Shown here: in pieces, positions 6,782 to 43,919 of the stretch
Layout of the letters: every line of letters begins with the position of its first letter
Numbering within the stretch: position 1 is the first letter of the stretch
From: a virus
DNA length: 64,000 bases
Virus record (IMG/VR): IMGVR_UViG_3300030107_001446
Location: 135,259 to 199,258 of that record
Strand: one strand, 5' to 3'
Made by a program: the position numbers and the translations under genes
Notes under the pieces: model-generated
Seen by the model: only the letters and a program-made list of their open reading frames with translations
What the model was told of the DNA's origin: nothing
The model's database searches: none

Positions 6782-6806
6782 CAATAGACAACTGAATAAT
6801 AAGTTA

Positions 6807-6971: not shown

Positions 6972-7062
6972 GATATAATCAAATAATGCTAACTATACTG
7001 GTTGTATGTAATATCATCAACTTGGTAAAAAATTAGCGTTTGAAAAAAATAAAAAAATCGTC

Positions 7063-7311
7063 GTGGAAACTCCAAAGTTTAACAGTGATGAGGAATTCAT
7101 CGCTTGGGCATTACAAAATATAAGTGAAGCAATAAAGAATCTATCCAGTAGAATAGAAGCTTTAGAGGGGGCAATAGGTAAAATGCCTCCCCCTGGTGCT
7201 GATATGATTAAGTATAAAGTCCCAGGTGATGACTCCTACTCTAATTTGAAAGAGTTATTTGATAATCTGTATAAGAGGATAAATACCTTAGAGAATAATA
7301 GTAAAACGTAG
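7063..7311 (+). CDS. Coiled-coil small protein, 82 aa (GTG start)
   Basis: Upstream, the frame is closed by a TAA at 7009-7011 and offers no ATG, so GTG 7063 is the likely start. Residues 15-40 form a heptad-like helix (ISEAIKNLSSRIEALEGAIG), followed by a Pro/Gly linker (KMPPPGADM) and a second helix (NLKELFDNLYKRINTLEN). This layout suits a small trimeric or dimeric structural or assembly protein. Its stop overlaps the GTG of the large structural gene by one base, implying coupled translation. Confidence 0.7.
   Translation: METPKFNSDEEFIAWALQNISEAIKNLSSRIEALEGAIGKMPPPGADMIKYKVPGDDSYSNLKELFDNLYKRINTLENNSKT
7278..7285 (+). promoter_or_regulatory. Candidate T4-type late promoter GATAAATA
   Basis: GATAAATA matches the NATAAATA form of the gp55-dependent late promoter and sits 26 bases before the GTG of the 1203-residue gene, though inside the 3' end of the preceding small gene. 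Position is right, but such A/T-rich octamers can occur by chance. Confidence 0.4.
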
Positions 7312-11628: not shown

Positions 11629-11655
11629 AACATATTGGCACTAAATATAGGTAAT

Positions 11656-12069
11656 ATGCCATCGTATAGGTTCAGATCTGAAAAATATATCAGTAGAGGG
11701 TTTAAGGATTTAGCAGTCTCTTTTAAACCAAACCCTTCTACAGGAGATTTTGGTGTGGTCAAAAATGAAAACGCTATAAAACAGTCTGTCCGAAACATCA
11801 TATTAACAATGTTTGGTGAAAGACCTTTTCAATATGAAATTGGGTCTAGGGTTAAAGCACTATTGTTTGAGCCTTGGGATCCATTTAGTGCTGATAGTAT
11901 GAAAAGTGAAATTCGTAATGCTCTGGATAGATTAGAACCAAGAATCGAAGTTAACCAAATTAAGTTAAGGGATGATTCTGATATAAATTCCATCCAGGTT
12001 GGTATTGACTACACTATCGTGGGTCAAGAAGAAATACAAAACGTCGAATTTCTCTTAGAGAGAGCATAA
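11656..12069 (+). CDS. 25: Baseplate wedge protein gp25
   Basis: A 137-residue T4 gp25/T6SS TssE-family protein. The core has the usual pattern: DLAVSFKPNPSTGD near the start, VKNENAIKQSVRNIILTMFGERPFQYE in two parts around residues 36-62, then a SRVKALLFEP turn and a C-terminal sheet ending in VEFLLERA. T4 gp25 has 132 residues. It joins gp6 and gp53 in the wedge and helps start sheath assembly. A TTG 21 bases upstream is in frame, but ATG 11656 gives the conserved start and fits the late promoter leader. The stop overlaps the gp6 start (TAATG). Confidence 0.92.
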   Translation: MPSYRFRSEKYISRGFKDLAVSFKPNPSTGDFGVVKNENAIKQSVRNIILTMFGERPFQYEIGSRVKALLFEPWDPFSADSMKSEIRNALDRLEPRIEVNQIKLRDDSDINSIQVGIDYTIVGQEEIQNVEFLLERA

Positions 12070-14174: not shown

Positions 14175-17100
14175 ATGACTCCGATAACCAAGAATATCAA
14201 CGTCTCTGATAGGGTCGAAAATCAGTTACCTGAATTTATACGCCAGGAAGACAGACAATTAGTCAACTTCCTATTTGAATACTATAAATCACAGGAAAAA
14301 ACTGGTAGACCATACGATATCCTCAACAACTTGATGAGGTATCTTGACCTTGACAAATACTCCTCAGAAGAGTTGTCAAGTAGCACGAGCTTGTTAAAAG
14401 ATATTGGGGTAGATGACACTAAGATAGAAATAGAGAGTATTAATGGATTCCAGACAAGAGATGGATCCATAATGGTTGATAATGAGATCATTTACTACGA
14501 GGGAGTCACTCGTGGACCTGATGTTATTATTACACCTGGTATTTCACTTCCACAGTTTAATAAGAAGAAGCAACAACTAGAAAACCCCTTCACATCGTTT
14601 GATGGTGTTGAAAGAGTCTTCCCATTAAGTTTTTTAGGTACTCCTATAGCACCTCCTAGTGCAGAGCACTTAATTGTAGTGACATACAACGATATGCTGA
14701 TTCCTGGATCAGAGTATACTGTTAATGGCACTAATATATCATTTACAAATCCACCTAGAGCAAGAACAGGTGCAGATGATTCAGAATTTACTCAAGTAGT
14801 ATATTTGGTTGGATATGCAGACCAAACAATCGTTACTGCTGACCAAATCCCATATCAAGAGTGGCAGAATACTCAAGTTTATCCATTAAGAGTTAATGGA
14901 CAGTCTTATACTCCAACTTCTGATATTGGTTTAATTATTAACAAGAATGGTAGGTTACAAACTCCTCAAGACGACTATACCCTCTTTGAAGACAAGGTTA
15001 TCTTCAAAAACCCAGTCGGTGCTGCTGATCTTATCCATATTAGGTCTGTTGAATATGTTGCTCCTGCATATGGGTCTGGAGCCTCAGCTATTGCTCAAGT
15101 TGATACTATAGGTCAGATTGAAGCAATCATTCCTAAGGATGGTGGTAAGAAGTATCGTCTAGATTTCGCTCCTAAGGTTGCTATAACCCATAAAGATGGT
15201 ATTAGTGCTACTGCAAAGTCCCTAGTTGGTGGTATTAAGGATATTAACCTTATAGATGGTGGACAAGGGTATTCTTCTTATAACCCACCTATCCCAGTAG
15301 TTGTAGCACCTGCAGATCCTAATGGATCCATTGCACAACTAAGTTTAACAGTTAATGATGTAACTGGAACAGTTGATAGCGTTACTATTACTAATAGTGG
15401 TAGTGGATATGACTTTATTCCCGCTATTTCCTTTAAGAATCCTTCTGGTGCTACTATAGGTGCACCTACTATTGACATAGAAGGTAGAGTTAACATAGGT
15501 AGCATCCCTGTTATCACTATGGGTAGTGGATATAGTAATCCACCTACAGTTTATATTGATGCTGCTCCAGATGGGGGTATCAATGCTCAGGCAGTCTCTA
15601 AAATCAACCAAGATGGTCAAGTATATGAGATTACCATTGTTAATAGGGGTAAAGGATACATTACACCTCCTAGAGTAAAGATTGTTGAGCCTATAGGTGC
15701 TCAAGTCCTCGATGTAACGGTTGCATCGGGAAGTGTTACAAATATTGAGATGTTAACAGGTGGTAGCGGTTATACAGACGCACCATCAGTCTACATAGTT
15801 GACAAAAGGGTTGATGGATATGGAGAACCAATTGGAGGTACTGGTGCAACAGCAGTTGCCACCATTTTTAATGGTGAAATCACCGATATCAACATTACTA
15901 ACTTTGGAACTGGTTATTCCGAGTCTGAACCCCCTCAAATCTATATTGCAGAACCTAAATCCGCTAGAGCATCGGTAGATGTAGGTTTTGACGAAGTAAC
16001 TGGATTCGACATCCTAGAAAAGGGCAGTGGATACTCTTCTTCTGCCTTTTTACAATGTTCTCGTGGTGTTTCTGGTCCTGTTAAGTATGATAACCTTCAT
16101 AATGAGATATATGCCACTGAAGCGAATTTAAGACAGTCTGATCACCATGCAGGTGCTGCTGTAGTCAATTTAGACACTTTATTCATCAAAGAAGTCTTCG
16201 ATAAGTTTAGAAGGCAGTATTTGCCGACTTTAGACATTGATTTTGCGTCAATTAACCCAGTTCAGGTAATTAAGAATATTACCGACTTCTATATCTCGAA
16301 AGGTACTAAATTATCGACTCAATACCTCTTCAAAATTCTTTTTGGTGAAGATGTTGACCTTTATTATCCAAAAGATGAAATAATCAGTCCATCTCATGCA
16401 ACTTGGGTTGTAGACACGGTTTTAAGAGCCGAATTGATGGAAGGAGACCCAAATAACCTAATTGACTCCCAAGTTAACCAATATGCCGATGATGTAGACC
16501 CTAATGTTACTGCTGCGTCTGCATTGATTGAAAACGTCATTACAATCATCGAAGGAACCGATACAATCTACGAATTGGCGATTTCTGAAGAAACCTTGGT
16601 TGGAAGCTTCATTATTCCTTATAAAACTCGTCTTGTTGAGCCATTAACGACCACTGGGCAAATAATCACTGTTGACTCTACTATTGGATGGCCTGAAAGA
16701 AATGGTACCATAAGAATAAATGATGAAGAAGAAGTACAATATAAAGAGAAATCTCTAAACCAATTCATTGAATGTACCAGAAGCAAAAACGGAATTGTTG
16801 AAGATTGGGATCCAGGAACAATAATTCAGTCCGATATTTACGTTTGGACTAACTTTGGAACAGCACAGCAATGTAAGTTAAGAATATTAGGAATTGCTGA
16901 AGCAGGTACTACAGTTCTTAATGATACAGGGTCATATTACCTTCAAGGAGATAAACTAAAGGTAGCAAACCTTGGATCTACTGCTGAGGAGTTAAGACTC
17001 CAATCTTGGTTATATAACGTCAAGAAACTTATCCAAGTTACCACTATAACTCCTGGTGGAGTTAATAACCAGACTGCGACTGTAGTTTGCGGTAACCCAC

Positions 17101-20100
17101 ATGGATTATTGGTTTCTGACCAAGTTACCATATATGGTGCTAACCCAGTTGTCTATAATGGCACATTTACGGTTACATCACGTATTGACCAATTTACTTT
17201 CTCTTATCAGATAGCAACACCTACAGAGATAATTCCTACTGGTAATATCCTCTTATCTGTTGACTTAAACAGAGGTAAGTCTGATGTAGTATCAATAAAC
17301 AAGGTTGTTAGTGAGTTTACAACTAACATACAGAATGCATTTTTCAACGATAACTATGTTTATGTTGCTGCTTCTGGTTTACCCAACTATAAGATTGGTC
17401 CTTTCACTGGGTCAGCTCTCATCCCAGGAAACCAAAGGAAACTCTTAAGATTCCCCAGAACAGTACAAACCGTCTCAGAAAGACAAGCAGTTGCTCCAGG
17501 TACTCCAATAGGTAGTTGGGTCAACGGTGTTTCTATATGGTCATATAAGTCTCCAGACTATATCCAGTATGGTCCTTTAACCTCTGTTAGTGTTACTAGC
17601 GTTGGTGAAGGATATGATGCAGGTGCTAAACCCAACGTAGAAATCACTGGGGGTGGTGGAACAGGTGCTACTGCTGAAGTTATAGTTAATGGTAGTCTTT
17701 CATCATTTGATGTTATAGAACAGGGTAGTGGATATACAGAATCACCTTTAGTATCAATCGTAGGTGGCGGTGGTATTGGTGCTACTGCTCAAGCAGTTAT
17801 TACAGGTGGTAGAGTAACAAGAATTTTAGTTGAGCAACCAGGTTCAGGTTATACGACTCAACCCCTAGTTTCTATTACTGGAGGTGGAGGCACTGGTGCG
17901 ACTGCTACTGCCAGTGTCCGTGGACCTATTAGTAGTGTTAGTATTACAAACTTCGGTAGTGGATATACTTCACTCCCTGACATTAAAGTTAACTCTGGTG
18001 AGAATGCTTTAGCACAACCAATCGTATTAAATGGTAGAATCGTTTCTATCGCTATTATCAACTCTGGTAATTCCTATACAACAGCACCTAATGTAATAAT
18101 CAATGGTGATGGATTTGGTGCAATCGCTAAAGCAACTATCGGTACAATTGGTGAAGATAAAGGACGTGTATTAAGCGTTTCTATCACTAACCGTGGAATT
18201 GGGTATACACAAGGTTTAACAACCGTCAGACTCGAAGCAGTGGGTCAATTAGCGTCATTCCAACCTACAGTTTACCAATGGAATAGAAACCTTCAATATG
18301 AATTGGTAGACAAGTTTGATGGTGCAAGTGGATATGTATTTACTGGATTTAACAACCAGTTTGGTGGTGAATATGCTCACCTATCAGATCCTAAAGAATT
18401 AAGATATGTTGTTGGTGATAACGTATTCTTAAATCCTGTTACACAGAATTTCCAAGAAGTTGCTTCTAACTATGACCACTCACCTATTATAGGTTGGGCA
18501 TTTGATGGAAACCCAATTTATGGTCCTTATGGTTACATTGACCCAACTGACCAGAATAGTGGTATCAGAAGGATGCGTACATCCTTCAAATTGAAGACTA
18601 ATGTTGTATTTGATGCAACTACTAATCCTAACCCTTCTAGGGTAGATGGACCTCCTATTTCAACATATGCTGCTGGAACATTTGTTGATGATTACTACTA
18701 TGATTTCCAATCTGGTGATTTAGACCAATATAATGGTCGTTTCTGTAAAACACCTGATTATCCAGATGGCACATATGCATACTTCGTAACTATCGATGCT
18801 AGTGACGCAGGTATTGCTGAATTCCCATATATCGTTGGACCTCAGTTTAACTCACTTCCAGATTCATGGAATATGAATCAAGCAGCAACACAGGAGAATA
18901 TTCCTGATGGAGTTGTCCGTTATAGAGATCCATATACTGATGTTGACATTGATATTGACCGTCAACCAAACCAGACTGCTGATGTCTTTACTACTGAGAT
19001 AGAAGGTTATCCTATCATCTTTGAAATACAAGACTCTAATAATGATGGTTTGATTGATGCTAATGAGCAACAAGAATTATTAGAGATGTCTGAAGAGGCA
19101 ACTCTACAAATATACGATTATTTCCCAAGAGTATCAGCAGAGTCTAGAGTTGATATTGAAGTTGAGACAACTACCCAATTTGAGAATGCTCAGATAGATG
19201 GATTCGTTGTTGAAAACCCAGGTGTTTCATATCAGGTAAATGACACCATATTCTTCGATAATGAAGGAACTGGTGGATTTGGTGCATCTGCTCTTATTGA
19301 ATCTGTTAAAGGACAGAATATAATTGGTTATCAAAAAGAAATGATTGGTGACCGTCCTTACGGTGTAATTACTACTGATATAGAGCATGAATTACGTCAA
19401 CAGGATGAAATCATTGTAAACTCACGTCCTGTTATTGATAATACTAATAAGACGTTTAGAGTTAAGGTTGTAGCGGGTGTTGAGAATATTGCTATAACTC
19501 AATCAGGTACTGGATATAATACAGATATTCCTCCAACATTTGAGTTAATTACTGCATCTGGACAAGATGCTGAGTTATCACTTGTATTAGAGAATACAGG
19601 TCAAGTTAATGCTGTTAATATCATTAACTCAGGTAATGGATACGATTCTGATAATCCTCCTCAGATTAGGGTATCACATCCACAACAATTCAAGAAAACA
19701 AGGTATTGGTTAGCTGAATATCAAGAAGCAACAGGTATAGTTAGTATCAATGATATTGTAACCACTGAAGAGCGTTATACTTATATTTGCGGTAGCATCA
19801 CTGAGACAGATGGTGATATGGCAGCATTCCTTGCCAAGTTTGATGATTTAGGTCAACTTGTTTGGGAAAGAAACCTTCTTCCTCAAAATGCAGGTCAGAA
19901 GAAAGCAGAATTCATTAAGATTCTAGTTGACGCAGTTCCAGAGAATGACCTCATATATGTTGTTGGACATACTTACGATCCAAACAATTCAGCATATAAT
20001 CCTGATATATGGTTAGGTAAGTATGAATCTGGATTTAATAATGCTAATGCACCTGATGGTATTCTTAAATGGCAGAAAGCGATTGCAGGTATCAGTGGTA

Positions 20101-35100: not shown

Positions 35101-38100
35101 GTAATTCTACTGAGCACACATATCCACGTCCTAATGTTGACCCATCATGGAATAATTCTCTAAGGATTGTTGATGATGGTGTATCACGTCATACTCCAAC
35201 AGATGCTTCTTATACTGCTACAACTGGAGTCCTAACATTAACAGTACCTAATCATGGTTGGTCTAATGGTCAGTATATTAGATTAGAAGATTATGCATTA
35301 GATTTAACTTGCACCATGGATGATGGTAGTGAGAATCATGCATATCCTAGAGGCACAGATCCTATTAGTAATAAGTGGTTAGAAATTTCTAACGTAACTG
35401 CATCTACATTTGATATTAATGTAGGCACTACACCTTCTGTCCAGTATACTCCTGCTGATGCTTCTTATGACCCATATTCAGGTCATATGGAATTGAATAT
35501 TGGTGCTCACCCACTTAAGGTTGGTCAAAGTGTTAAACTTGCTGATGGTGCTGTTACCTTTAGTTGTGACATGGATATGAATGCATCTAACCATGCATAT
35601 CCAAGGACAACTGTTGACACATTTACTCCAACAGCAGGAGCATATGATGGCACAACTGGTTATCTAACATTAACTCTTAATGGTCATGGATTTGATAACG
35701 GATCATTAATTAAGATTGCAGATAATGCTCTTACTGCTACCTGTGAAATGGATGGTAATTCATCAGGTAAGACATATCCAAGATCAACAGATCCTATTAG
35801 TGGAAAATGGAAACCTGTAGAGAATGCAACTGAAAATACATTTGATATTTTTGTTGGTAAGACAGAATTCAAGAGTTTCGATCCACAGCAAGTAGATTAT
35901 AATCCTGCTACAGGTAATATGGTAATCACTGTTGGTCCTGACCACGGTATTACAACTGCACATAGTGTTTACATTAATCGTGAATCAATGTGCTTCACTT
36001 GTGCACAAGATGGTCATGGAAGTGACCACTTCTATCCACGTCCTAATGGTAGTGGTGGTGCATCTGGTGATGACCCTGCATATCAAGAGGCTGTTGCTGT
36101 AACTGCTGTTGATGATAGCACTATAACAGTTAATGTTAACCCATCACCTTCTGGAGCATCTAATCATGCTCATATCTTCAAACCTGCTGTAGGTTTAACT
36201 CCACAGAATGTGACATATAGTGGTGTATCTGGTGTGATGACTGTTACCTATGCAAGTCATGGCATGATAACAGGTGAGCAGATTATGTTTGAGGATAATT
36301 CCTTAATCTTCACATGTGGTAAAGATGACCATGCTACTGAGCATGCTTATCCAAGACACGGTGACCCTGCAAGCAACAGATGGTTAACAATTACAAGAAT
36401 TGATGACAATAGATTCACTGTTAAAGTTTTAGATGAAACTCCTTCTACTAACACTTCTGCTCATACATTCAAGTATGCTAAAGCAGGTGCAATGAAGAGA
36501 GGATCTATCAGAGCAGGTGGATCATTTACACATACATTTACAACATTCGCATCAGGTGGTGTATCTCATAAGAGAGATAGAGCATATGACCATTCTATAG
36601 AAATTAAGAAAGTTGGTCATGGTGAATATACTGCTACAGGTGCAACATATAATGCTGAGACAGGTGTCCTACAATTAACAATTAATGGTCATCCATTTGC
36701 TAATGGTAACATGATTAAGTTGAAGCCTAATTCACTAATCATGACTTGTGATATGGATAACAATGCTACTAAGCACTCTTATCCTAGAAAGACAGATTTT
36801 GCTTATGATAGATGGTTAGAAATTTCCAACAAGCAAACAAATACTATTGATGTTAACGTTGGTAAAACACCTCGTGCTAACTACCTAGTTTCTGCTGCCA
36901 CATTTGACCCAACATCAGGTGACATGGAACTTACTATTGGTAAGCATGGATATCATGGTGGCACAACACATACAGTAACTAATGGTACCTATGATGCTAT
37001 AACTGGTAAGATGGTTATCACAGTTCCTGATCATGGATTCATTATTGGCGATAGAGTTAAGTTTGTAGATAATTCAATTTCATTCAAGTGTGGTATGGAT
37101 GGATATGATGTTGTTAAATCTTATCCAAGACCAACTGACCCTGCACATAACACATGGTTAGAAATTGATGATATAACACTTCATACATTCTCTATTAATG
37201 TTGGTACATCACCTAAGACAACTCATAACGTAACTAACGCTAATTACAATCCTACCAGTGGTGTAATGGAATTAACCATTGGATCACATAACTTGGATGT
37301 TGGTGATAGTATCAAACTTAAGCCAAATTCATTAACATTTACTTGTGATTATAATGGTGATGGTCAGACAACTCAGAAGACATATCCTCGCTCATCTGGT
37401 GCTGCTACTGCAAACGGTAAAGACTATGCTTATGATGCAGCATTGGTTATTACTGCTAAGACAGGAACATCAATCACAGTTAACGTTAACGGTGGTCAAG
37501 GTGCTATTACTGACGTAACTACTCACACATGGGCTGGTGGAACATCAGCAGGTGCTGTTATGTCTGGTGGTGGTTATGCACATCAATTCTGGTCTGCTGC
37601 TGCAAACGGACTTCAGAGAGCAAACGAATCAGTTTACATTGAGAATGAGTCATTAGTATTCAAGTGTAATAATGATGGTTATGCTACTGAGCACAAGTAT
37701 CCACGTGCTAATGGTCAAGGTGGTGCTACTGCTGATGACCCATATTATGATACTTCAGTTCCTATAGTTTCTGTAGGAGATGAAACTATTACAGTTAACG
37801 TTGGTAAATCTTCAGATACATCAACTCATCTATTTGTAAGGTCTGAAAATGCATTCGATGTTTCTGGTGCATCCTTCGTACCTGGCTCAGGTGAATTAAC
37901 AATCACAATGCCTAGTCATCCATTCACCTCAGGTGATAAGGTTATGCTTAAGGATCAAGGATTCACATTCACTTGTCAAGAAGATAATGACCAAACAACT
38001 CATTCATATCCTAGAGCATCAGACCCTGCTTCAAATAATACTTGGTTGACAGTTACTGTTGTAGATGCATCTAACTTTAAAGTTAACGTTGGTACTTCTT

Positions 38101-41100
38101 CTAACGTTACAACTCACACATGGGTATCATCATTACCTGGTGCTGTTATAAGAGGTGTAATTAGAGGTGGTGGAGTTTATGCTCATACCTTCGATAGTTT
38201 CGTTGATGGTGGAGTACAATGGAAGAATTCTACTATTAGTCTTGACGTTGGTGAGTCACCAGCTAAAGGATATGGTGTTAGTGGTGCATCCTTTGTACCT
38301 GCCACAGGTCTATTGACAATGACAATCGGCAACCATCAGCTTAAGACTGGTATGTATGCCAAGATTGCTAACAAGTCAATGGTATTCCGTTGCGACCAAG
38401 ACTCACAGCAAACTGACCACGTATATCCACGTCCTAATGGATTCAGTGGTGCTACAGGTAATGACCCTGCATACAATAATAGAGTAGAAATTACTTCTGT
38501 ATCTGCTGATAGTATTACAGTTGATGTTGGTACATCTTCTAACACTACAACTCATTATTTCCAAAACGCTAATAACGTTTACACACCAACTTTTGCATCA
38601 TATGACCCAACATCAGGTTTAATGAATATCAGCATTCCTGGTGACACTAAAAACGTTACAGGTGCTGCATACAACCCAACTTCTGGTACATTAGAATTAA
38701 CAATCGGTGCTCATACTTTAACTACAGATGATGTAATTAAGTTGAAGCCTAATTCATTAACATTCACTTGTGATTATGGTGGAGATGGAAACGTAACTCA
38801 GAAGACATATCCTCGTGCACAAGGTGCATCTACTTCTGATGGAAAAGATTATGCATATGATACTGCATTAGCAATTACTGCTGTAGACCAAGCAGGTGGC
38901 ACAATCACAGTTAACGTTAACGGTGGTCAGGGTGCTATCACTGATACTACTACCCATACATTCCAATCTGCACTTGCAGGTGCTGTTATCGTTGGTAACG
39001 GTTTCATAGATGGTGAGTATATTAAGATTGCTGATGATGCATTTAAGTTTACTTGTGATAAGGATAATAACGTTACATATCACGATTATCCAAGAGCATC
39101 AGATCCATCAAGTGGAAGATGGTTGAAGATTTCTAACTGTAATGTTGATACATTCGATGTCCAAGTATTACAAAACGTACCTTCCACAAACACAACTGAC
39201 CATACATTTGTATCTGCTGTAGCATCTAGTATTCAGAGGTCTGTTGTTACTATCGGTGGTGAGTATAATCATACATTCGTATCTGCTGTTAGTGGTGGTG
39301 TAACTGCGGGTGGAAACTATACACATACATTTGCATCTGCTAAGCCAAATTCACTACACAGACAGAGTGGTAAGATTACAGTTAATGTAAATGTTGCTGC
39401 TACTGCTGACCTATATGACCATACATTTGTTAGTGCAATTCCTGGTGCTGTTATAGCAGGTGGTAATTATATGCACTCATTTGTATCTGCTGCCACAGGT
39501 GGAATTGAGAAAGCAAATTCATATATCTTGATAAAAGATGGTGCTCTTAACTTCACATGTGATTTAGATGATTATGAAACTGAGCACTTATATCCTAGAG
39601 ATACAGACCATGCAAGTAATGAATGGTTGGCAGTATCTAATGTCACTGTGGATACATTTGATGTCCAAGTATTGAAAGGAGTCCCATCATCATTCTTAGG
39701 TAAGCATACATTTGTATCTTGTGCTGAAGGTGGTATATGGAAGCAAGACGGTACTATTAAGATTAACGTTGGACCTTCACCTGCGGGTAATACATATGCT
39801 CACAGATTTGTAAGTGCTAACTCTGGTGCTTTAATACAGGGTGGTAACTATAGACATAACTTTGTATCTGCTGCATCTGGATGCATTAAGGTAACAAATA
39901 GTGGTGCTACATTAACACCTACTGATGCATACTACGTCCCAACAACAGGTAAGTTAACTCTAACTGTTGCAGGTCATAGTTTAACAACTGATGATACTAT
40001 TGAAATTGATACTAACGGATTAACATTCACATGTAGTCAAGACCAGAATGCAACTAACCACACATATCCTCGTGTGACAGACTATGCTGACGGTAAGAAA
40101 TTACATGTCCAAATGTCTAACTCATGGGCATGGCCTACTCAAGATTTGAAATACTTCAGGTCACGTCAGGTATCACAAAACTACACAGGTACAGAAGGTG
40201 CTCCAGTAGAAACTGAGATTACACAACTCATACAATTTGTAACTGATGGACTTACTAATCCTAACACAGTTGCAAGTAGGTCTTACATCATGCCTACTGT
40301 ATGGCCTGTTAAGTATACTCCAGAAGTTGTAGTAAGAGATCTTACTATTCAATATGATACAGCACAGGGTGGACAAGGTAACCAAGGTACATGGAATCAA
40401 ACATGTCAAAACGTTGCTTCAACAATCGCTACTGTTGCTGATATCTACATTCAAACAATAGCAGAGGCAGCAAATAATAATGTTAACTACTTAACTTCAA
40501 ACGTTACTAAGACATTCCCATTCAATAGCAACACAATATATCAAGATGGCACATGCTATAACGTAACATCTGCTATTGATACGTTGTTTGATATTATGAA
40601 GCATACACTTGGTGCTGGATCAAATAACTCCAAGAATATCGCTAACATGATACTCTTCAATCAGCAAGCAATAGCAGGAAGAGCATTTGGTGAGACACAG
40701 GTTAACTGGCCTACAACTAATCTAACTATTGACTTTGCTAATGATGTCCTTGCAGCAGTACGTTATGACTTAGTAACTGGTGGTAACTCAGGTGCATTTG
40801 AATTAGCACAACAGTGGTTTGACGGTGAAGGTAACTTCATAGCATTCCCAACCGTAGTTAGGACACACATCTTATATTGTTTAACAAGAGTTAGAGAATA
40901 TATTAAGAGTGTTATGTATCTTGTTGGTGAAGATGCTGTATGGAATAATTACGATGTATATGTCCCAGAAGGAAGACTTGAGTGGAATCAAGAAGCAGTT
41001 GAATTTATGGTTGACTCTTCACTTAACCCACTTGAATTTGCTTTAGAGAGAGGAGAATTCCCAACAGAAGCAAGAGTCCAGTGGATTGCATCTAGTGATG

Positions 41101-43919
41101 CTGTTAACCGTGTTACAAGGAATGAAGTAGGTTGGGATTATAACACCGACCCTGCATTGGTTACTCTAACTCCTGAAGTTGAAGTTGGATATGACCGTGC
41201 TGAATATAGAATAAGAATTAATCAACCAAACAACTTCCGTCGTGGTGATGTGTTAAGTTACATTCCTACTGGTGGTCAAGCTCTTAGTGGATTGACAAAT
41301 CAGGAATATTTCTACTGTCTAACTGCTACTGCTCAGTGGTTTGAAATAGGTGCTTCCTATATCCACGATGGTAGATTTAGATTACTACAAGTAGATACAT
41401 CTAACTCAAACACACAGGTATTCCAAGTAATGCAGAGAAGTGGTATTTCAAGGACTGCTCCTACATACCCAGTTGATATGTCCGATACTCCAATACAAGG
41501 TGGATTCAATGCTGCTGACGTTGTATATGGGTCAACATCTGGATCTAGTGCTGAGGTATCAAATGTCCTTACTAATGAAGGTAAGATTTATAAGATGTAT
41601 ACACACTATGATTTAACTGGTGTATCACAATCGGCTGGCACATACGAAAACTTCATTAATGGTGAGACTGTCCAAGTCCAAGGTGCAACTTCTAATACTG
41701 GTTTTGTATTACAGACTGCTGCAACAGATGATGACACAGGTGAATCTATCCTTAAACTTAACTCCATCGCAGGTGCTATTAACTTGAATGATGTTGTTGA
41801 GGGTGTAGATAGTGGCACAACTGCAACAGTTGGTACTCCATCTGAAAGATTCTTACTTAACGTTACATCTGGTGCATTCTCAGCAGGTGACTGGTTCTTC
41901 GAGGAAGGTGCTAACACTGAAGCATACATGGATGCTTATGTTAATAAGTCTGGTTCTCTAACTGGTAATGAAGGTGGTAGAATTACAATCGATGTTGAGA
42001 CCATTGATAGTCAGTGGACTCCTGGTGATATTATCTACGGTAGTGTTACTAACTATATTCTTTCAGTTAAGGGTATTAGTGGTACACAAATTCAGTTGAA
42101 TCAGTGGTTACACGGTAGAGTAACCTATGAATTAGACCTAGGCGTACCTATCGTTGATACTGGTATCTCTGATACATTCAACGTTGGTGACGAGGTTACA
42201 CTCCTACAAGGTACCGTCCAGAAGAATCCAGGTTGGATTGCTACTGTAACCAAGTATATTAATGGTCTAGAATTAGATCCAGGCGAGCCTAACTATGGTA
42301 TTCATAAAGTTTGGATTGGTAACTTAGTACCTGTTGGAGCAGGTGCTGATATCTCTGAGGTAACTCAAGGAATTAATACTATTGGTAAGATTCAATTAGG
42401 GTCTAATTTCCCAACAATATACGCACAGTGCACAAACGTAACTACAACAAATTACTCATCTTATGCAAGAGTAGTTGCTATAGAGCAAGCAGGTATTACT
42501 GCTGAAATTTGGGTAGAGAATGCAGTTGGTGATTTTGTTGATAATATGTCACTTGTATCTGACTTTGGATGGGGTGGTGCTGTTACTTCTGCTAGGACAC
42601 TAGAGGGTAGAGTTGACAGATACTTCAGAGGATTTGATGGAAATCAAACAATATTTGACTTAACCATTTCTAATGGTGAAGCATACTTCCCAGATCCAGC
42701 TGGACATCTATTAGTATTCGTTAATGGTATTCTACAACCTCCAGGTGGTGCTAACTCTTATGTTGCATACTCAGATAAGATTCAGTTTGCTGAGCCTCCT
42801 GAGATTGGATCACAATTCGTTGGATACTATGTTGGTAAATTACGTCAGTTAGATGATATCAGTTATGAGTTTGACTCATTGAGATCTTCCTTCAACCTTA
42901 AGCGTCAAGGTTTATTCTACTCCTTAACACTGACTGAAGGTGTATCTTCTAACGTTATACGTCCTGAGAATAACATTATCGTATCACTTAACGGTATTAT
43001 TCAGGAACCAGGTCTAGCATACGAGATTGTTGGTTCACGATTAATCTTCGCTGAAGTCCCACGTGCGGGATCAACCTTCGTTGGTTTCTCATATATTGGT
43101 AGTGATGCTGACGTTATCGCAGCAACAGTCGTACCTCCTGTTGAGGCAGGTGACCAACTCTTTATCGAGGGTGAGGAATTTAATCGTGAAGTTGCTCTAA
43201 TTGAATCTTCCAACTCCTTGATTACTTTTGAGTATACAGGATCAGTTAAGGGTAGAAATGCTGCTGCTATCGCTCAGATAACCTCTGGTAAGATAACAGG
43301 TGCTAACCTAACCAACTCTGGTGATGGTTATACTTCACGTCCTAACGTTGACGTTATATCTTCCTCTGGATTTGATTCTCGCATCAAGGCATTGATGGGT
43401 ATTACACGCATAGATGTTAAGACATCTGGTGTTGGATACTCTATACCAAATGTTGCTATTGATAACGTAGTTCCAGATGATTTCACACCTCCAGAAGGTG
43501 CACCAATTAACGGTGGATTTGATGTATTCGCAGGTGAAGGCACAGATGCAGGTGGTGGAGGTACCACAATCGAATCTGGTACAATAGCAATTCTTCAGGA
43601 TCCAGTTAACGTTACTGTTAACCAAGGTCAGAATGCAGCATTCACAGTTGTCTCTAGTGTAACTAACGACCAGACAATGAATTATCAGTGGCAGAAGAAG
43701 GAGTATGGTACACAGACTTGGAGCAACATCATTGGTGCTAACCAAGCAACATACAATACTTCTATCACACAACAAGCAGATGATGGTGACGAATATAGAG
43801 TCGCTATCACAGCAGCAGGTGCAATCCCAGTTTACTCACTCTCTGCTACATTGAGTGTCCAGACTGGTGCTACTATCTTGAGTAACTTCACTCCAGACCT
43901 TATCTTTGACGACAACTAA
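14175..43919 (+). CDS. Giant virion protein, 9914 aa, at the gp7 position
   Basis: One uninterrupted frame, roughly 1 MDa by length, against 1032 residues for T4 gp7. Approximate order: baseplate-type N-terminus with LPEFIRQEDRQLVNFLFEYY (1-110); GxGY repeats (301-626); helical gp7-type segment with FYISKGTKLSTQYLFKILFG (667-736); GxGY (1135-1359); YHYH-type domain with GWAFDGNPIYGPYGY (1431-1571); EF-hand-like DSNNDGLIDANE (1620-1631); GxGY (1771-1836); propeller-like (1839-2229); LamG (2239-2436); two CBM5/12-like modules (W2658, W2735); GxGY (3089-3326); NGVIQAPG fibre domain (3626-3724); six Cys-[RD] helical repeats (4069-5230) with a second LamG (4459-4614); third lectin-like fold (5286-5476); 30 FTC...YPR units (5480-8647); two NG-IIQ/ILQ-PG domains (9478-9645); Ig-like domain (9807-9898). 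Probably a baseplate-anchored adhesive fibre. That role is inference; the frame itself is certain in this assembly. Confidence 0.85.
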   Translation: MTPITKNINVSDRVENQLPEFIRQEDRQLVNFLFEYYKSQEKTGRPYDILNNLMRYLDLDKYSSEELSSSTSLLKDIGVDDTKIEIESINGFQTRDGSIMVDNEIIYYEGVTRGPDVIITPGISLPQFNKKKQQLENPFTSFDGVERVFPLSFLGTPIAPPSAEHLIVVTYNDMLIPGSEYTVNGTNISFTNPPRARTGADDSEFTQVVYLVGYADQTIVTADQIPYQEWQNTQVYPLRVNGQSYTPTSDIGLIINKNGRLQTPQDDYTLFEDKVIFKNPVGAADLIHIRSVEYVAPAYGSGASAIAQVDTIGQIEAIIPKDGGKKYRLDFAPKVAITHKDGISATAKSLVGGIKDINLIDGGQGYSSYNPPIPVVVAPADPNGSIAQLSLTVNDVTGTVDSVTITNSGSGYDFIPAISFKNPSGATIGAPTIDIEGRVNIGSIPVITMGSGYSNPPTVYIDAAPDGGINAQAVSKINQDGQVYEITIVNRGKGYITPPRVKIVEPIGAQVLDVTVASGSVTNIEMLTGGSGYTDAPSVYIVDKRVDGYGEPIGGTGATAVATIFNGEITDINITNFGTGYSESEPPQIYIAEPKSARASVDVGFDEVTGFDILEKGSGYSSSAFLQCSRGVSGPVKYDNLHNEIYATEANLRQSDHHAGAAVVNLDTLFIKEVFDKFRRQYLPTLDIDFASINPVQVIKNITDFYISKGTKLSTQYLFKILFGEDVDLYYPKDEIISPSHATWVVDTVLRAELMEGDPNNLIDSQVNQYADDVDPNVTAASALIENVITIIEGTDTIYELAISEETLVGSFIIPYKTRLVEPLTTTGQIITVDSTIGWPERNGTIRINDEEEVQYKEKSLNQFIECTRSKNGIVEDWDPGTIIQSDIYVWTNFGTAQQCKLRILGIAEAGTTVLNDTGSYYLQGDKLKVANLGSTAEELRLQSWLYNVKKLIQVTTITPGGVNNQTATVVCGNPHGLLVSDQVTIYGANPVVYNGTFTVTSRIDQFTFSYQIATPTEIIPTGNILLSVDLNRGKSDVVSINKVVSEFTTNIQNAFFNDNYVYVAASGLPNYKIGPFTGSALIPGNQRKLLRFPRTVQTVSERQAVAPGTPIGSWVNGVSIWSYKSPDYIQYGPLTSVSVTSVGEGYDAGAKPNVEITGGGGTGATAEVIVNGSLSSFDVIEQGSGYTESPLVSIVGGGGIGATAQAVITGGRVTRILVEQPGSGYTTQPLVSITGGGGTGATATASVRGPISSVSITNFGSGYTSLPDIKVNSGENALAQPIVLNGRIVSIAIINSGNSYTTAPNVIINGDGFGAIAKATIGTIGEDKGRVLSVSITNRGIGYTQGLTTVRLEAVGQLASFQPTVYQWNRNLQYELVDKFDGASGYVFTGFNNQFGGEYAHLSDPKELRYVVGDNVFLNPVTQNFQEVASNYDHSPIIGWAFDGNPIYGPYGYIDPTDQNSGIRRMRTSFKLKTNVVFDATTNPNPSRVDGPPISTYAAGTFVDDYYYDFQSGDLDQYNGRFCKTPDYPDGTYAYFVTIDASDAGIAEFPYIVGPQFNSLPDSWNMNQAATQENIPDGVVRYRDPYTDVDIDIDRQPNQTADVFTTEIEGYPIIFEIQDSNNDGLIDANEQQELLEMSEEATLQIYDYFPRVSAESRVDIEVETTTQFENAQIDGFVVENPGVSYQVNDTIFFDNEGTGGFGASALIESVKGQNIIGYQKEMIGDRPYGVITTDIEHELRQQDEIIVNSRPVIDNTNKTFRVKVVAGVENIAITQSGTGYNTDIPPTFELITASGQDAELSLVLENTGQVNAVNIINSGNGYDSDNPPQIRVSHPQQFKKTRYWLAEYQEATGIVSINDIVTTEERYTYICGSITETDGDMAAFLAKFDDLGQLVWERNLLPQNAGQKKAEFIKILVDAVPENDLIYVVGHTYDPNNSAYNPDIWLGKYESGFNNANAPDGILKWQKAIAGISGTTRRDWVTSLALDQEGRIYLAGYTDSNSIDPNDMWIIQCNLDGDLVEKRKIASATDSEMINQIQWISDDRFFMVGQNDENDDCIFGVFWFDGANLEIEYIRQIPTIGGYVRNPKFTIDEYDDVILVWDVYNGAAQKYDKVQINKFPLSTASTSWTWSKTVTISGDIDAIRHAGVNVDKFGNYTLVTDVIEDQNQRYAIYHYIKYDGNVIKESKVDDTTSIGFQAITHSVDNSGDVIMVINRQQSDQIAAYRFNDDTDLDYDFTKQNKAAMTFYSPSDASYDSSFYKYGTGALKLSAVNPVSLPNLNLESKEWSFRAWLSMNSTAHSTDHKPLLWDILPVAGDSIQVELDGDTNSANYEKVIIYVNSVQVATSLLATNWTAFAGASWVHVTFQKREESLGLYQYEVFINGALVCNFQSTSDISVGSAVLCGKSAGPTSNNTFIGWVDDYVIDDVAPYLSAYSVPSAEIEITTSNSDSALVKFDREHTKRGSYALSGLDNYTQLDFTDNEITTTWVDVGLSAISPWIVGAGGLQILDMSQVVSNLNPGTYTFTANKFEYGTKTSTIPSPLGKKLIIEPEVISKFYIRDALYQKIDNVMEFTFSQDIKLTKGSILQQFNSSGVTQAYGTIVKVPEGTLLNPGYGNKYQVGKIYGTFNNTDRYRTVANDINQIEGTYFNTEEEESPWQANTAYTAGDRVYADKKIYEVQATGTSGTISLSHTSGVASDGLLNWAFIDDAGKFTVDLTQHPYPRPQWVGMDMPEWLPDRLYVEGQRVWWKLNVYEVAVGGAGVAGTNAPVHDTGDASDGGVTWTHVSTEEAISVYSRLMGYDMGNNYTVQIMEVHPGSVYIPDDVVSLNAGNITLAEDEKSVEISGFASVKKIQVTARLEKDIIRTNAVRTEFVYCTSNTAHMFKAGDILFTEGFSTAQFNGSFFIDQVIGTREFTFAIRATASSDPAFINNALGGVNIYAKHPTLEFTRNHQYVFDLSDSSNFGYYLSFSQDNQYKLEYSFNNIERNGTPGIATTPAPTVQFSVLGEVTNISYYFDPSRTGADSPVGTNSFIDVIKTPFDGRFTISEVPTDTSFKFPLLKEPERTNAEVGEDYLGNDYSYYSTTSVRAVGPINTIQLVSPGGFYQKLPIISDIASFRQIEKCVVVDGGTEYAPGVYYDVPIAGDGEGAKCTVTVEVDEEIGSGTITGCAVTDPGKGYTTASIDIDAIPGILGATLAGSGGSVNVVIPSEGSGASVFLTGTNIGKIKRLKNNEFGFGYSHDYTLKPEITFPVNLQLFNTSILSQITITDPGSGYSSTPAVVIEGGGGSGAEAEAIIKNNRLSEIIIKNPGAGYSSEPTVTLKSEFNYVVNLDLNYLQFNFPHGITSGAEVTFRAENVGSTTGELPKPSTAGLTSLVANQVYYAIAGTAAGLEPDQLRFGLTKASALAGSYITFLTQGSGRQVLLTEVFGGKATAVVETSRFLEGEDVYQGSNVETATAMGTVSTNTGWQIGPKILKIVDYTGDWAVGESVTGTISKASGVIDNFSIARGVLNIGSLTKTPGRFIDDVGKPSEIVQKIQDSFFYQNFSYVVQSQIPITEWKSQVLENNHPAGFNMFGQLQLTGGKDVSGRKIGTEFTKKVNINNYSNVNQITSFGAAQPIYTDYNNTEVLFRKKRLTSSEEILTSIVKKLDNFEDQFDGIKKAFPITVEGEQVIVKQDQLMITLNGVIQAPGISYQVVGGDLVFSEPPRPPSKVNYRIIGVTPTPIYRIALYSPGGNANYGIFPTIGQQVQGEFSDAVGTVIDSGTNHIDVINIVGGPFQLNEEIVRGEIFSALVETVTQVNSDTIFEFGEAITNLEGDTAYVEETNVDTDGNVTDRLVVSKTSGTPRFETGIYDLRLNEYIYSASSKIAGQITYTAPYSDPINDEVVDELIINRGTTFFGLLFERLLSLTNPNIILDNISQSSITPTKLYDSSNRINADFLDFEEVRTTEVTYSQLANGAFADGDIIRNKKTFYGNPISVFHGNAANRFLDGGRNIANNKQEIIDFAEASIAIDYPDYYFPSDVITNAWSRFKDAYRMIQKNKALIVGMAFDDMKTQFPSSSIPSDAKCKRDIEYFVDAVSIDMYAGGNRYTRKFCQQYFNEAGSFTYINAQATETKWAYEKARDRMKVAIANGYSGTISAANSGDSWVAYQDLTITADPSPTNPYGTAGTNTSNTDSDNCTDVQSAIETLHEIVDETLTNGSLTELPVESGGTYSPHQEKCRRDLGYFIDAISNDLKTGGNYQTVLFTRSFFDASGTPLTNGIVGEEAEAVHAFTTAGTLMHRAINNLMYWKDLSGVGYNLNDPTTYSGGVAPANTYDANYASGNNQDINNCANVKSYIDTLKAIATTAMTAGNLTNVNNLASITDGTFQDGETIRTTKFAYKNRSRGLFALGDTIKGITSGAVFEAIGANAGLKWIFASNVTGTFQDEEWITNSTLTATNCTQSVIVKKAELVGDKSVYKPSNGLLTQTASEDFAFGTGDFTIQSWIRPAANVGTQYLFDFRRLSAAQGLNIRMDGQGLKVYNGTTLMVSGSGDFATTGTWYHIAIVRNSGVTQAYVNGAQIGSNYVDTNDYLYNAPHIGSDFNQSSHWTGHIDNLCIKKGVCDFITGFTPPTQVDFAEDNIVLGIDGEGPFIASTTEVWATYTGQRTSSTTAKRVDYDGLALIASDIDTGRKELRDCAEIIDLNGAWIAEEAVGRMKAAFVDFTIRGDDPGNNSYGGTNLCIRDTKDYILGALIKDLQEGGDFHTIYTARTYLTTSGKLDHITDEILQSLYTWNEVFKLCETVITTTSTDLSGEYSTRLRIPNNFSSPASSTVTDEIKLLGDNLLKVVAPNDQRFREGGFQLWKNRDYIAEEVAGYIQNKYQQEINEVTYDFLEMPGYGQPYCERDIKQFILPAVMADLVTGGTYQTEAVIDKYLDSQNKVIHVDEELNPMLDAFEYCKMLCMKAVNNLLLSSGEAAAELGVPTWVQEEYYAPQWTARAAYRDDTIVLDTEGYPQAGTRQNNDRYLDAADLIWKNRHVIAKECVSTMNDLSKYENLNIPGGHVNCEDDVLDMIEAMVHDLRFDCNEKTYDAAALYIETENNSLKHIEGEWEASITVVKILRDITSLIMRNAFGRDYEEGGSPDQKPVESYEQNPRIDLYKNCGDAIDGNIRYIAEQAVAAGLVQFPNLNIPGGPINCVHDVTDILRALVFNIKYGGNNWLQYSTEFYATYSGNLDHVTNAPTETNWIMNKARDFAIRAMKGQIITNEAGHVVDQRFYDAVPRPTTTMVTTSVLTGAPVTDNYNNLVTRSFKFGEDKISTTDTGTGIIPDEDAVFSVVTKLPSSPIDCCLFEAGGGTSGVWFGIRDGGTWLRLRAGNGTNSYTSGASYTADTGLAMLDLQISNLTQYFDDGDHELVWQIVIGGNQTTGAGSVTLWIDGQQIGQATTPGGGWTGLTGASGLFANTQWAGFGVSNGSLVAGEAATINTFTVNVGPAPTIAYDITAADYDSSTGDLILNVGNHNHTPGTFLRLISNSLTFTCDQDNHASNHTYPRSGDPAGNTAVEVLDVGRTEHTATAASYDPNSGIMNMTIEQHGMTASTSHTAKDAAYDPDSGVLTITLDDHGFKTGDQVKIHNGSLIFTCAQDNHATKHGYPRQKDPAGDQWLLIEEVTPNTFKVNVGATPKVEYNVSDAVYDQNDGELTLDIGQHRFVGASNHVATFAEYNADKGTLKLTVSGHGVIVGDQIQIMENSMTFTCSMDNHYTNHVYPRSTDPCVGQWLDVVESDIPGGTFTVNVGQSPIVGWDPSDATYNSETGHLTLEIGNHSLAVGTHVKLSQESLNFTCSMDDHATIHSYPRDTDPTHNEPIQILATTATSITVPVGTTPTVQYTPTNATFTPADGLLELTLDRKHTFRPATIHNISGGEYNGSTGMMRVTVADHGFSNGDFVKIADGGITFSCTMDGNASNHAYPRASDPYSNKWLAVRNASKDSFDVYVGRTPELPFTITDATFVPSTGHMRVWIGDHDLVAGDYVRMTEESIGFTCLLDNNISKKYYPRSSGSNYVGNGGADPFWNKRIQIAYAGMPLTATTGTSYNPTTGVMSISTDAPHGMSDGDEVKIATDSLVFTCLEDNNQTNHTYPRATDPFNDRWMRVSNTSTYTFDVQVLSYAPSTNSTTHTFVQANVNGITKKDGTITLDVGASSDTTAHTYTATPGLTPTAITHNPVTGIMDITVEGHKLMAGDFIKIADNSLTFTCAMDNHASDHVYPRPADPASGSWLKVLTATTDTFTVQVLKDIPQSNTTTHLFKSAVAECITKSVIKTGGVYDHTYVTSSVGALRHAGDSVRLAPDALTFRCDADGQASDHVYPRSATTQHTPSDVVYNPNTGNLKFTVNNHGFLPHSYVKIADNSLTFTCAKDDNATGHLYPRPTDPVSGKWVMINDVSANTFTVEVLDVIPSTNTTVHTFVSATSNCITHKKDHFYDTNIPIYEVGMTSSTPSNVSYNPTLGEMVVTVNNTLTGCNKITPDSATYYPATGILRIQMNGHPVKNGQMVWLQDGAFTFRCDEDGQASDHAYPRPSDPASNKFLKAFNVGTNTIDVNVGYFEGQGAISNQTTHVFQSGAMNGVWHANSYVMFEENAVTFQCTKDNNATNHSYPRPSDPSWNKWLPVFNTSSGQFSVKVGKSGINDIYDHTFVSFATDGLKTQTGTIKLDVGNGQITNPTTHVFQSANANSLIGGGEYTHDFKSTNSTYTVTDANYLPATGIMTLTIPNHGFQDGESIKISNDSLVFTCLQDAGGSEHSYPRYTDPVADKWIKIHNCTDDTFDVQVLENIPSTNQTLHTFKRASANGVTRAVLATGGNYTHKFIAPAQLTPTNAVYDPSTGVMTVTVTKHGLKNGTRIKVEDGFVTFTCGQDSNQTNHSYPRASDPFSDEWMKVSNVTTDTFDIQVLFNIPSTNTTPHTFVSGKPKSITVATLMKGNDSIKIADNGLTFTCSKDGNSTEHTYPRPNVDPSWNNSLRIVDDGVSRHTPTDASYTATTGVLTLTVPNHGWSNGQYIRLEDYALDLTCTMDDGSENHAYPRGTDPISNKWLEISNVTASTFDINVGTTPSVQYTPADASYDPYSGHMELNIGAHPLKVGQSVKLADGAVTFSCDMDMNASNHAYPRTTVDTFTPTAGAYDGTTGYLTLTLNGHGFDNGSLIKIADNALTATCEMDGNSSGKTYPRSTDPISGKWKPVENATENTFDIFVGKTEFKSFDPQQVDYNPATGNMVITVGPDHGITTAHSVYINRESMCFTCAQDGHGSDHFYPRPNGSGGASGDDPAYQEAVAVTAVDDSTITVNVNPSPSGASNHAHIFKPAVGLTPQNVTYSGVSGVMTVTYASHGMITGEQIMFEDNSLIFTCGKDDHATEHAYPRHGDPASNRWLTITRIDDNRFTVKVLDETPSTNTSAHTFKYAKAGAMKRGSIRAGGSFTHTFTTFASGGVSHKRDRAYDHSIEIKKVGHGEYTATGATYNAETGVLQLTINGHPFANGNMIKLKPNSLIMTCDMDNNATKHSYPRKTDFAYDRWLEISNKQTNTIDVNVGKTPRANYLVSAATFDPTSGDMELTIGKHGYHGGTTHTVTNGTYDAITGKMVITVPDHGFIIGDRVKFVDNSISFKCGMDGYDVVKSYPRPTDPAHNTWLEIDDITLHTFSINVGTSPKTTHNVTNANYNPTSGVMELTIGSHNLDVGDSIKLKPNSLTFTCDYNGDGQTTQKTYPRSSGAATANGKDYAYDAALVITAKTGTSITVNVNGGQGAITDVTTHTWAGGTSAGAVMSGGGYAHQFWSAAANGLQRANESVYIENESLVFKCNNDGYATEHKYPRANGQGGATADDPYYDTSVPIVSVGDETITVNVGKSSDTSTHLFVRSENAFDVSGASFVPGSGELTITMPSHPFTSGDKVMLKDQGFTFTCQEDNDQTTHSYPRASDPASNNTWLTVTVVDASNFKVNVGTSSNVTTHTWVSSLPGAVIRGVIRGGGVYAHTFDSFVDGGVQWKNSTISLDVGESPAKGYGVSGASFVPATGLLTMTIGNHQLKTGMYAKIANKSMVFRCDQDSQQTDHVYPRPNGFSGATGNDPAYNNRVEITSVSADSITVDVGTSSNTTTHYFQNANNVYTPTFASYDPTSGLMNISIPGDTKNVTGAAYNPTSGTLELTIGAHTLTTDDVIKLKPNSLTFTCDYGGDGNVTQKTYPRAQGASTSDGKDYAYDTALAITAVDQAGGTITVNVNGGQGAITDTTTHTFQSALAGAVIVGNGFIDGEYIKIADDAFKFTCDKDNNVTYHDYPRASDPSSGRWLKISNCNVDTFDVQVLQNVPSTNTTDHTFVSAVASSIQRSVVTIGGEYNHTFVSAVSGGVTAGGNYTHTFASAKPNSLHRQSGKITVNVNVAATADLYDHTFVSAIPGAVIAGGNYMHSFVSAATGGIEKANSYILIKDGALNFTCDLDDYETEHLYPRDTDHASNEWLAVSNVTVDTFDVQVLKGVPSSFLGKHTFVSCAEGGIWKQDGTIKINVGPSPAGNTYAHRFVSANSGALIQGGNYRHNFVSAASGCIKVTNSGATLTPTDAYYVPTTGKLTLTVAGHSLTTDDTIEIDTNGLTFTCSQDQNATNHTYPRVTDYADGKKLHVQMSNSWAWPTQDLKYFRSRQVSQNYTGTEGAPVETEITQLIQFVTDGLTNPNTVASRSYIMPTVWPVKYTPEVVVRDLTIQYDTAQGGQGNQGTWNQTCQNVASTIATVADIYIQTIAEAANNNVNYLTSNVTKTFPFNSNTIYQDGTCYNVTSAIDTLFDIMKHTLGAGSNNSKNIANMILFNQQAIAGRAFGETQVNWPTTNLTIDFANDVLAAVRYDLVTGGNSGAFELAQQWFDGEGNFIAFPTVVRTHILYCLTRVREYIKSVMYLVGEDAVWNNYDVYVPEGRLEWNQEAVEFMVDSSLNPLEFALERGEFPTEARVQWIASSDAVNRVTRNEVGWDYNTDPALVTLTPEVEVGYDRAEYRIRINQPNNFRRGDVLSYIPTGGQALSGLTNQEYFYCLTATAQWFEIGASYIHDGRFRLLQVDTSNSNTQVFQVMQRSGISRTAPTYPVDMSDTPIQGGFNAADVVYGSTSGSSAEVSNVLTNEGKIYKMYTHYDLTGVSQSAGTYENFINGETVQVQGATSNTGFVLQTAATDDDTGESILKLNSIAGAINLNDVVEGVDSGTTATVGTPSERFLLNVTSGAFSAGDWFFEEGANTEAYMDAYVNKSGSLTGNEGGRITIDVETIDSQWTPGDIIYGSVTNYILSVKGISGTQIQLNQWLHGRVTYELDLGVPIVDTGISDTFNVGDEVTLLQGTVQKNPGWIATVTKYINGLELDPGEPNYGIHKVWIGNLVPVGAGADISEVTQGINTIGKIQLGSNFPTIYAQCTNVTTTNYSSYARVVAIEQAGITAEIWVENAVGDFVDNMSLVSDFGWGGAVTSARTLEGRVDRYFRGFDGNQTIFDLTISNGEAYFPDPAGHLLVFVNGILQPPGGANSYVAYSDKIQFAEPPEIGSQFVGYYVGKLRQLDDISYEFDSLRSSFNLKRQGLFYSLTLTEGVSSNVIRPENNIIVSLNGIIQEPGLAYEIVGSRLIFAEVPRAGSTFVGFSYIGSDADVIAATVVPPVEAGDQLFIEGEEFNREVALIESSNSLITFEYTGSVKGRNAAAIAQITSGKITGANLTNSGDGYTSRPNVDVISSSGFDSRIKALMGITRIDVKTSGVGYSIPNVAIDNVVPDDFTPPEGAPINGGFDVFAGEGTDAGGGGTTIESGTIAILQDPVNVTVNQGQNAAFTVVSSVTNDQTMNYQWQKKEYGTQTWSNIIGANQATYNTSITQQADDGDEYRVAITAAGAIPVYSLSATLSVQTGATILSNFTPDLIFDDN
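15237..16050 (+). repeat. GxGY repeat block A in giant protein
   Basis: At least six units with the pattern hydrophobic strand, N/G-x-G-x-GY, x2-4, P-x-V/I-x-I (for example NSGSGYDF, GSGYSNPP, GKGYITPP, GSGYTDAP, GTGYSESE, GSGYSSSA). Units are about 40-55 residues apart and diverged at the DNA level. They probably form a stacked beta structure. Confidence 0.75.
17574..18250 (+). repeat. GxGY repeat block B in giant protein
   Basis: Five to six further units (GEGYDAGA, GSGYTESP, GSGYTTQP, GSGYTSLP, GNSYTTAP, GIGYTQGL) separated by Gly-rich GGGGTGATA linkers. The linkers are nearly identical in protein and similar in DNA, suggesting these units arose by more recent duplication than block A. 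Confidence 0.75.
26379..29850 (+). repeat. Cys-[RD] helical repeats (six copies) in giant protein
   Basis: Six copies begin with Cys then a charged pair: CKRD (26379), CRRD (26838), CIRD (28344), CERD (28830), CEDD (29316), CVHD (29712). Each continues as a helix, then D-hydrophobic-x2-GG and an aromatic-rich helix, as in FVDAVSIDMYAGGNRYT. A degenerate seventh (YDLVTGGNSGAFELAQQWFD) lies near 40760. A companion motif, C-x-[DN]-V-x-S-x-I-[ED]-TL, occurs near 26716, 27173 and 40554. Confidence 0.75.
30612..40113 (+). repeat. Array of 30 FTC...YPR repeats in giant protein
   Basis: Thirty units, on average 107 residues apart, share: TGxMxLTIxxH; a G-D-x-I/V-K strand; [FLMA]-x-C-x2-D/N; then H-x-YPR (K replaces H in units 6, 18, 22, 23 and 27); DP; W-L; and T-F-x-V-x-VG. 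Each carries one Cys at the same place. Eight units (7, 8, 10, 13, 14, 20, 28, 29) use a longer linker of the type VQVL-x3-PSTNTT-x-HTF. DNA copies have diverged, so the array is old and maintained. Confidence 0.9.

Follow-up and report, generated by a model that had tools for sequence, protein, structure and literature searches.

A single open frame of 9,914 codons very probably codes for the gp7 baseplate wedge subunit of a marine cyanophage, a protein that keeps collinear core elements and a conserved carboxyl-terminal block and carries adhesin-like insertions between and after them. The frame lies in a window of 64,000 nucleotides (the whole stretch of DNA analysed), which corresponds to bases 135259-199258 of the 199,258-base IMG/VR virus record IMGVR_UViG_3300030107_001446. 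The gene takes up 14.9% of that record. Its product, called here the giant, has a mass of ~1.08 MDa, and it reaches 9,914 residues because repeat modules were inserted between and after conserved pieces of gp7.

The protein family itself, phrog_701, and the annotation of members as "baseplate wedge initiator" are already known, and the giant is an extreme member. The present analysis adds the dispersal of the gp7 core elements, the growth in length through repeats and a homology to phycobiliproteins. In the open-access literature searched there was no report of a dispersed gp7 core with repeat-driven length, nor of phycobiliprotein-like repeats in a virion protein.

Core elements of gp7 dispersed in one chain

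The best DNA matches of the window are the T4-like cyanophages P-TIM40 and P-RSM6 (Kyanoviridae). The giant gene is found among the following baseplate and structural genes (window positions):

11635..12069, + strand: gp25 homologue (synteny; in P-TIM40 and P-RSM6 an annotated gp25 immediately precedes gp6)
12069..14168, + strand: gp6 homologue (Pfam Gp6-like_1st, E 2.7e-18, and Gp6_C-I)
14175..43919, + strand: the giant, a gp7-type baseplate protein (open frame; same frame in contigs G001 and G012; phrog_701 member)
43928..45916, + strand: structural protein with YHYH and Ig-like domains (PF14240, E 1.2e-39; weak Ig)
45941..47419, + strand: gp10 homologue (T4_gp9_10_N, E 8.7e-9)
49391..50926, + strand: gp8 homologue (Phage-Gp8, E 2.4e-17)

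T4 gp7 is a baseplate wedge subunit that pairs with two copies of gp6. The initial annotation assigned the giant to the place of T4 gp7, and this holds both for position and for sequence: the frame begins 6 bases past the gp6 stop, the order gp6-then-giant is the same in P-TIM40, P-RSM6 and S-SZBM1, and the protein carries three elements of gp7:

14199..14369, + strand: core element 1, amino-terminal helices, residues 9-65 (hhalign to OC gp7)
16182..16409, + strand: core element 2, KGT motif DFYxxKGTxxSxxYLFKxLFG, residues 670-745 (PDB profile search, hhalign)
24777..24941, + strand: core element 3, FSY...HPAGFxMFG, residues 3535-3589 (hhalign, genome and PDB profile searches)

All three align by hhalign to gp7 of Ochrobactrum phage OC (631 aa) and Sinorhizobium phage phiM12 (1,007 aa), where they are collinear with those of the giant, and two of them align to T4 gp7. 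Element 1 corresponds to OC gp7 residues 6-62 (P 90%, E 1.8e-6). It has no direct hhalign match to T4 gp7 and reaches it via phiM12-type gp7 only, phrog_17744 (the phiM12 gp7 family) aligning to T4 gp7 646-758 and thereby covering most of the Pfam domain Gp7_helical (643-689). Element 2 matches T4 gp7 733-762 (P 89%). Its profile, built from 12 sequences, was run against 177,635 PDB sequences and found only T4 and KP1-variant gp7 at significant scores (E 4-5e-6), while a scan of its own genome gave a single place (E 2.4e-67). The FYISKGT segment, described earlier as baseplate-like together with the amino terminus, is thus the KGT element of gp7. Element 3 aligns to OC gp7 232-285 (P 97%, E 5.7e-10), to phiM12 gp7 942-995 and, modestly, to the HPVGF element of T4 gp7 (865-898, P 70%). 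Up to E 10 its profile has two PDB matches, both of them gp7 (T4 and KP1-variant, E 0.03-0.04), and genome scans locate it at one place each, in the giant of five cyanophages and in gene 7 of T4 (E 4.6e-5). PhiM12 gp7 links the families, with matches to T4 phrog_964 (643-832, E 8.9e-7) and to phrog_701 (E 6.9e-19); outside the core elements hhalign aligns it only with glycine-rich beta segments of the giant.

T4 gp7 (phrog_964; PDB access codes 5HX2 and 5IV5) shares with the giant the KGT-type motif followed by the HPVGF element, in the same order, and the position after gp6; its helical domain 643-689, linked via the phiM12 family, may have a counterpart in element 1. The two proteins differ in that ~640 residues precede the core in T4 and none in the giant, which has thousands of residues inserted within and after the core. 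A single-sequence tblastn search with T4 gp7 gave no cyanophage match, and profiles were therefore needed; a phmmer search of the PDB with OC gp7 had no match either. Pfam finds T4 gp7 domains V and VI (PF21427 and PF21456) in T4 and not in the giant, phiM12 gp7 or OC gp7, and these domains characterise the T4 subgroup and do not belong to the core. On sequence evidence, which for T4 consists of short motifs, the giant is a gp7 homologue in which the T4-specific outer domains are not detected. In an AlphaFold2 monomer model of residues 1-798 element 1 is helical; the helical core is of low confidence and the model has no fold match in the PDB.

The comparison proposed between residues 1-750 and T4 gp7 holds for residues 670-745; residues 9-65 gave no direct match. 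The gp7 part is not confined to residues 1-750 with a fibre behind them: the position of element 3 implies that modules were inserted inside the gp7 core. The three elements take up a span of 3,600 residues in the giant but fit within 285 residues of OC gp7. Elements 1 and 2 are adjacent in the OC and phiM12 proteins, the former being almost bare and the latter featuring one insertion of ~800 residues. A small, conserved part of a machine can therefore grow ~16-fold (from 631 to 9,922 residues in the homologues compared), by modules added between core elements whose order is kept.

Proteolytic cleavage of the assembled chain to yield a baseplate subunit and at least one fibre, raised in the initial annotation, would be compatible with the gp7 explanation. 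The sheer size of the giant speaks for it, and a variable middle flanked by conserved ends would suit several final products. The proposal gained no support and is unlikely, as Pfam and PHROG scans gave no protease domain, the core elements are scattered far along the chain and homologues are found as single ORFs in virion proteomics, although tryptic peptides are blind to intact versus cut chains (PMC9146016). It is quite unlikely that the giant is a dedicated tail fibre or adhesin with borrowed gp7-like segments, the real gp7 being another gene. Most of its length is adhesin-like, with modules common to tail-fibre PHROGs, but two independent gp7 elements occur once each and both in the giant (in a 199-kb record that may be incomplete), the giant directly follows gp6, and the sole T4 match of element 3 is gene 7. 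An unrelated fibre was considered and rejected.

Extent of the frame and known relatives

The frame 14175-43919 is ATG-initiated and has no internal stop, as first described. An 83.7-kb contig from another metagenome (G012) contains the identical frame with no base difference, and a 47.8-kb contig (G001) has the frame at equal length, 9,914 codons, differing at 202 bases and also free of stops. In close relatives and more diverged contigs the frame is unbroken over 9,458-9,922 codons, and in further contigs over 9,152-9,581 codons. Other relatives are mostly of 6,000-7,500 codons and some of 8,136-9,581, shorter lengths possibly reflecting contig ends, and none has an internal stop. Values of dN/dS are 0.11-0.37 in each 1,000-codon block (relative to three genomes, G003, G004 and G005, at 0.56-1.20 synonymous distance), a pattern that indicates purifying selection across the whole frame. 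GC content is 22% at third codon positions versus 48% and 43% at the other two. Near-perfect tandem repeats, which an assembler might collapse or expand, are absent from the gene, its protein repeats being diverged. Recurrence of the frame in other contigs, unbroken relatives and coding selection throughout lead to the conclusion that this is one real gene. An artefact of assembly or a spurious joining of adjacent genes, which the extreme length in a single metagenomic contig might evoke, is extremely improbable in view of these data and of the isolates that carry versions of 6,400-8,600 residues.

The giant matches the phrog_701 profile over the greater part of its length, in four pieces (1,015, 4,151, 1,017 and 1,325 bits). 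Annotated Kyanoviridae isolates in this family include P-RSM6 (CPXG_00128, 8,573 aa, the longest), P-TIM40 (PTIM40_99, 7,351 aa) and S-SZBM1 (S-SZBM1_208, 6,619 aa). They share with the giant the post-gp6 position, the amino-terminal third, the carboxyl-terminal block, the gp7 elements and the module types. The length, put at about ten times that of T4 gp7, is 9.6 times by measurement; its singularity among viral proteins was overstated given these family members. The giant is one of the two longest gp7 homologues measured here (9,914 and 9,922 residues), and a literature search on the longest phage proteins yielded nothing on the phrog_701 family. In PHROG, phrog_701 bears the label "head and packaging", which the homology to gp7 contradicts.

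Inserted modules and growth in length

The initial annotation described the remainder of the protein as a chain of adhesion-like modules, and YHYH, LamG-like, SBBP propeller and tail-fibre PHROG modules were indeed found:

14424..16052, + strand: insertion 1, beta-rich modules, residues 84-626 (AlphaFold2 model)
18360..18800, + strand: YHYH domain, residues 1396-1542 (Pfam PF14240, E 1.6e-28)
20097..20186, + strand: SBBP beta-propeller repeat, residues 1975-2004 (Pfam PF06739, E 8.1e-5, above cut-off)
20991..21449, + strand: weak LamG/concanavalin-like domain, residues 2273-2425 (Pfam PF13385, E 1.2e-5, just below cut-off)
26274..29927, + strand: six phycobiliprotein-like helical repeats with a CxRD motif, residues 4034-5251 (profile of 24 units)
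27594..27974, + strand: LamG/concanavalin-like domain, residues 4474-4600 (Pfam PF13385, E 2.9e-16)
30612..40124, + strand: 29 "YPR" beta repeats (FTCxxDxxxxxHxYPRxxDP), residues about 5480-8650 (motif count)
42675..43424, + strand: conserved carboxyl-terminal block, residues 9501-9750 (cross-genus identity)

Insertion 1, ~540 residues between elements 1 and 2, is predicted by AlphaFold2 to consist mostly of strands with good pLDDT. It is missing from OC and phiM12 gp7, and its model has no fold match in the PDB. Glycine-rich beta segments, the YHYH domain, the propeller repeat and the weak LamG domain are located between elements 2 and 3. Element 3 is followed by the six helical repeats, the strong LamG domain, the 29 YPR repeats (motifs at residues 5521-8620), a variable part and the carboxyl-terminal block. 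This block has the highest mean identity across genera of any block (81%) and is found in 318 phage records.

YPR repeats are common to tail-fibre PHROG 5342, and in other cyanophages they turn up in proteins annotated as short tail fibre, tail fibre or structural. An AlphaFold2 model of three repeats is all-beta and clearly matches models of cyanophage tail fibres and gp7, with no PDB match at E<=0.001; a YPR profile found nothing among PDB sequences. The copy number follows protein length: 29 copies in proteins of 9,914 and 9,922 residues, 26 in those of 9,553 and 9,560, 16 in the 8,573 residues of P-RSM6, 5 in 7,295-7,351 residues (P-TIM40 among them), 2-3 in 6,862-6,965 residues and none in the 6,619 residues of S-SZBM1. 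The 29-copy array thus accounts for most of the extra length over relatives of 6,600-7,350 residues, and the different copy numbers explain why the giant is longer than the proteins of the three isolates. One relative (G002, IMGVR_UViG_3300006329_000009) shares 96-100% with the giant up to residue ~3250 and beyond it 80-100% with G005. It appears to be a natural-looking recombinant of the outer part, though it could be a metagenomic chimera.

The helical repeats were identified by a Pfam phycobilisome match (PF00502) above cut-off near residues 4034-4102 and by a profile of 24 aligned units from five phages. Searched against the PDB up to E 10, this profile retrieved phycobiliproteins in 46 of 47 matches (best E 3.6e-4), while a control profile of reversed units retrieved none and gave three unrelated weak matches. 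The alignment runs through the YP-L-PG and C-x-R-D segments. Within the latter, Cys and Asp are present in all 24 units and Arg in 17; the cysteines of the giant are at residues 4069, 4222, 4724, 4886, 5048 and 5180. Where no LamG domain intervenes, three of the four spacings between repeats are of 153-162 residues, about one phycobiliprotein length. These profile data identify the six repeats as homologous to phycobiliproteins, to which they align around Cys84-x-Arg-Asp87; they differ in being six degenerate copies within a virion protein. The repeat was found by tblastn in 282 phage records, short tail fibre proteins included. With the Pfam model, phycobilisome-type repeats are present in 8 of 15 phage records, in 7 of them inside the gp7 frame.

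In phycobiliproteins the Cys of this motif attaches the bilin and the Asp contacts it. The record encodes two adjacent ferredoxin-dependent bilin reductases (record positions 25165-26506), one of them above the PcyA cut-off, and a CpeT homologue (104356-104811), all outside the window. Both CpeT and phycobilisome-type repeats occur in 8 of the 15 records and neither in 7, a co-occurrence not relied on since the genomes are few and related and threshold effects intervene. Phage CpeT and reductases are usually explained by a boost of the host antenna (PMC10452541, a review). Bilin carried by the six repeats on their conserved Cys, either the product of the phage reductases and CpeT or a bilin of the host, is very unlikely, and a reused helical scaffold is the simpler reading of the likeness. 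Were it the case, bilin on a virion protein might act as a structural cofactor, as a photosensor or as a mimic binding phycobilisome parts. Phycobiliprotein-like repeats in a virion protein make the purpose of cyanophage bilin genes directly testable.

Proposed place and working in the virion

Relatives of the giant are present in viral particles. The 6,619-residue S-SZBM1_208 was identified as a virion protein with 71 peptides and 13.5% coverage (PMC9146016). The S-CREM2 protein encoded after gp6 gave 91 unique peptides in the virion (PMC10665884), and S-SM1 T4-GC 969, also detected in the virion (PMC3037559), was matched to its gene as a homologue of the giant. S-SZBM1, P-RSM6, P-TIM40 and S-WAM1 were reported to have no long tail fibres (PMC9146016), which fits an adsorption role of the giants. 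When S-PM2d and Synechococcus coevolved, early changes affected structural genes as well as very large proteins (3,048-3,779 residues) that have no assigned function (PMC9910659). Outward appendages on gp7 have a precedent in Vibrio phage XM1, whose gp17 (242 aa), the T4 gp7 orthologue in a (gp16)2-gp17 wedge, holds receptor-binding tail spikes via its loop 80-106 and its carboxyl-terminal part 201-242 (PMC10457771). The likeness is drawn from the published description, and the XM1 spikes are separate proteins while in the giant the chain itself contains the adhesin-like modules. No baseplate structure of a marine T4-like cyanophage was found in the literature searched.

From the gp7 homology and the order of the elements we infer that the core elements would fold into a (gp6)2-gp7 wedge, which would place about six copies of the giant around the tail tip. 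The inserted chains may project outward as built-in adhesins that make many contacts with the cell surface, bind receptors and pass the attachment signal to the wedge. In cyanophages the appendage would then be built into the gp7 chain itself. The notion of a baseplate-anchored fibre made as one polypeptide is supported in part. Its simple free tip is less favoured, as the carboxyl-terminal block is the most conserved part of the protein; the variable middle (~3750-9250) between conserved ends may instead be a looped-out arm. The YPR repeats, through their number and sequence, and recombination near residue 3250 could adjust reach or the range of hosts. For the giant "virion structural proteins" encoded by ocean cyanophages, this provides a testable identity and place.

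A PAAR-motif protein (phrog_281; 10922-11455), possibly the spike tip, is encoded just upstream of gp25. Positions 50930-58264 code for a 2,444-residue structural protein (phrog_358), and an S-SZBM1 protein of 2,446 residues at the corresponding place in the gene order has good coverage in the virion proteome of that phage (PMC9146016). A large ORF that leaves the window (58848-63998) features the amino-terminal domain of the Major tropism determinant (PF18454, E 4.3e-12) and includes a 36-base tandem repeat at 61332-61407.
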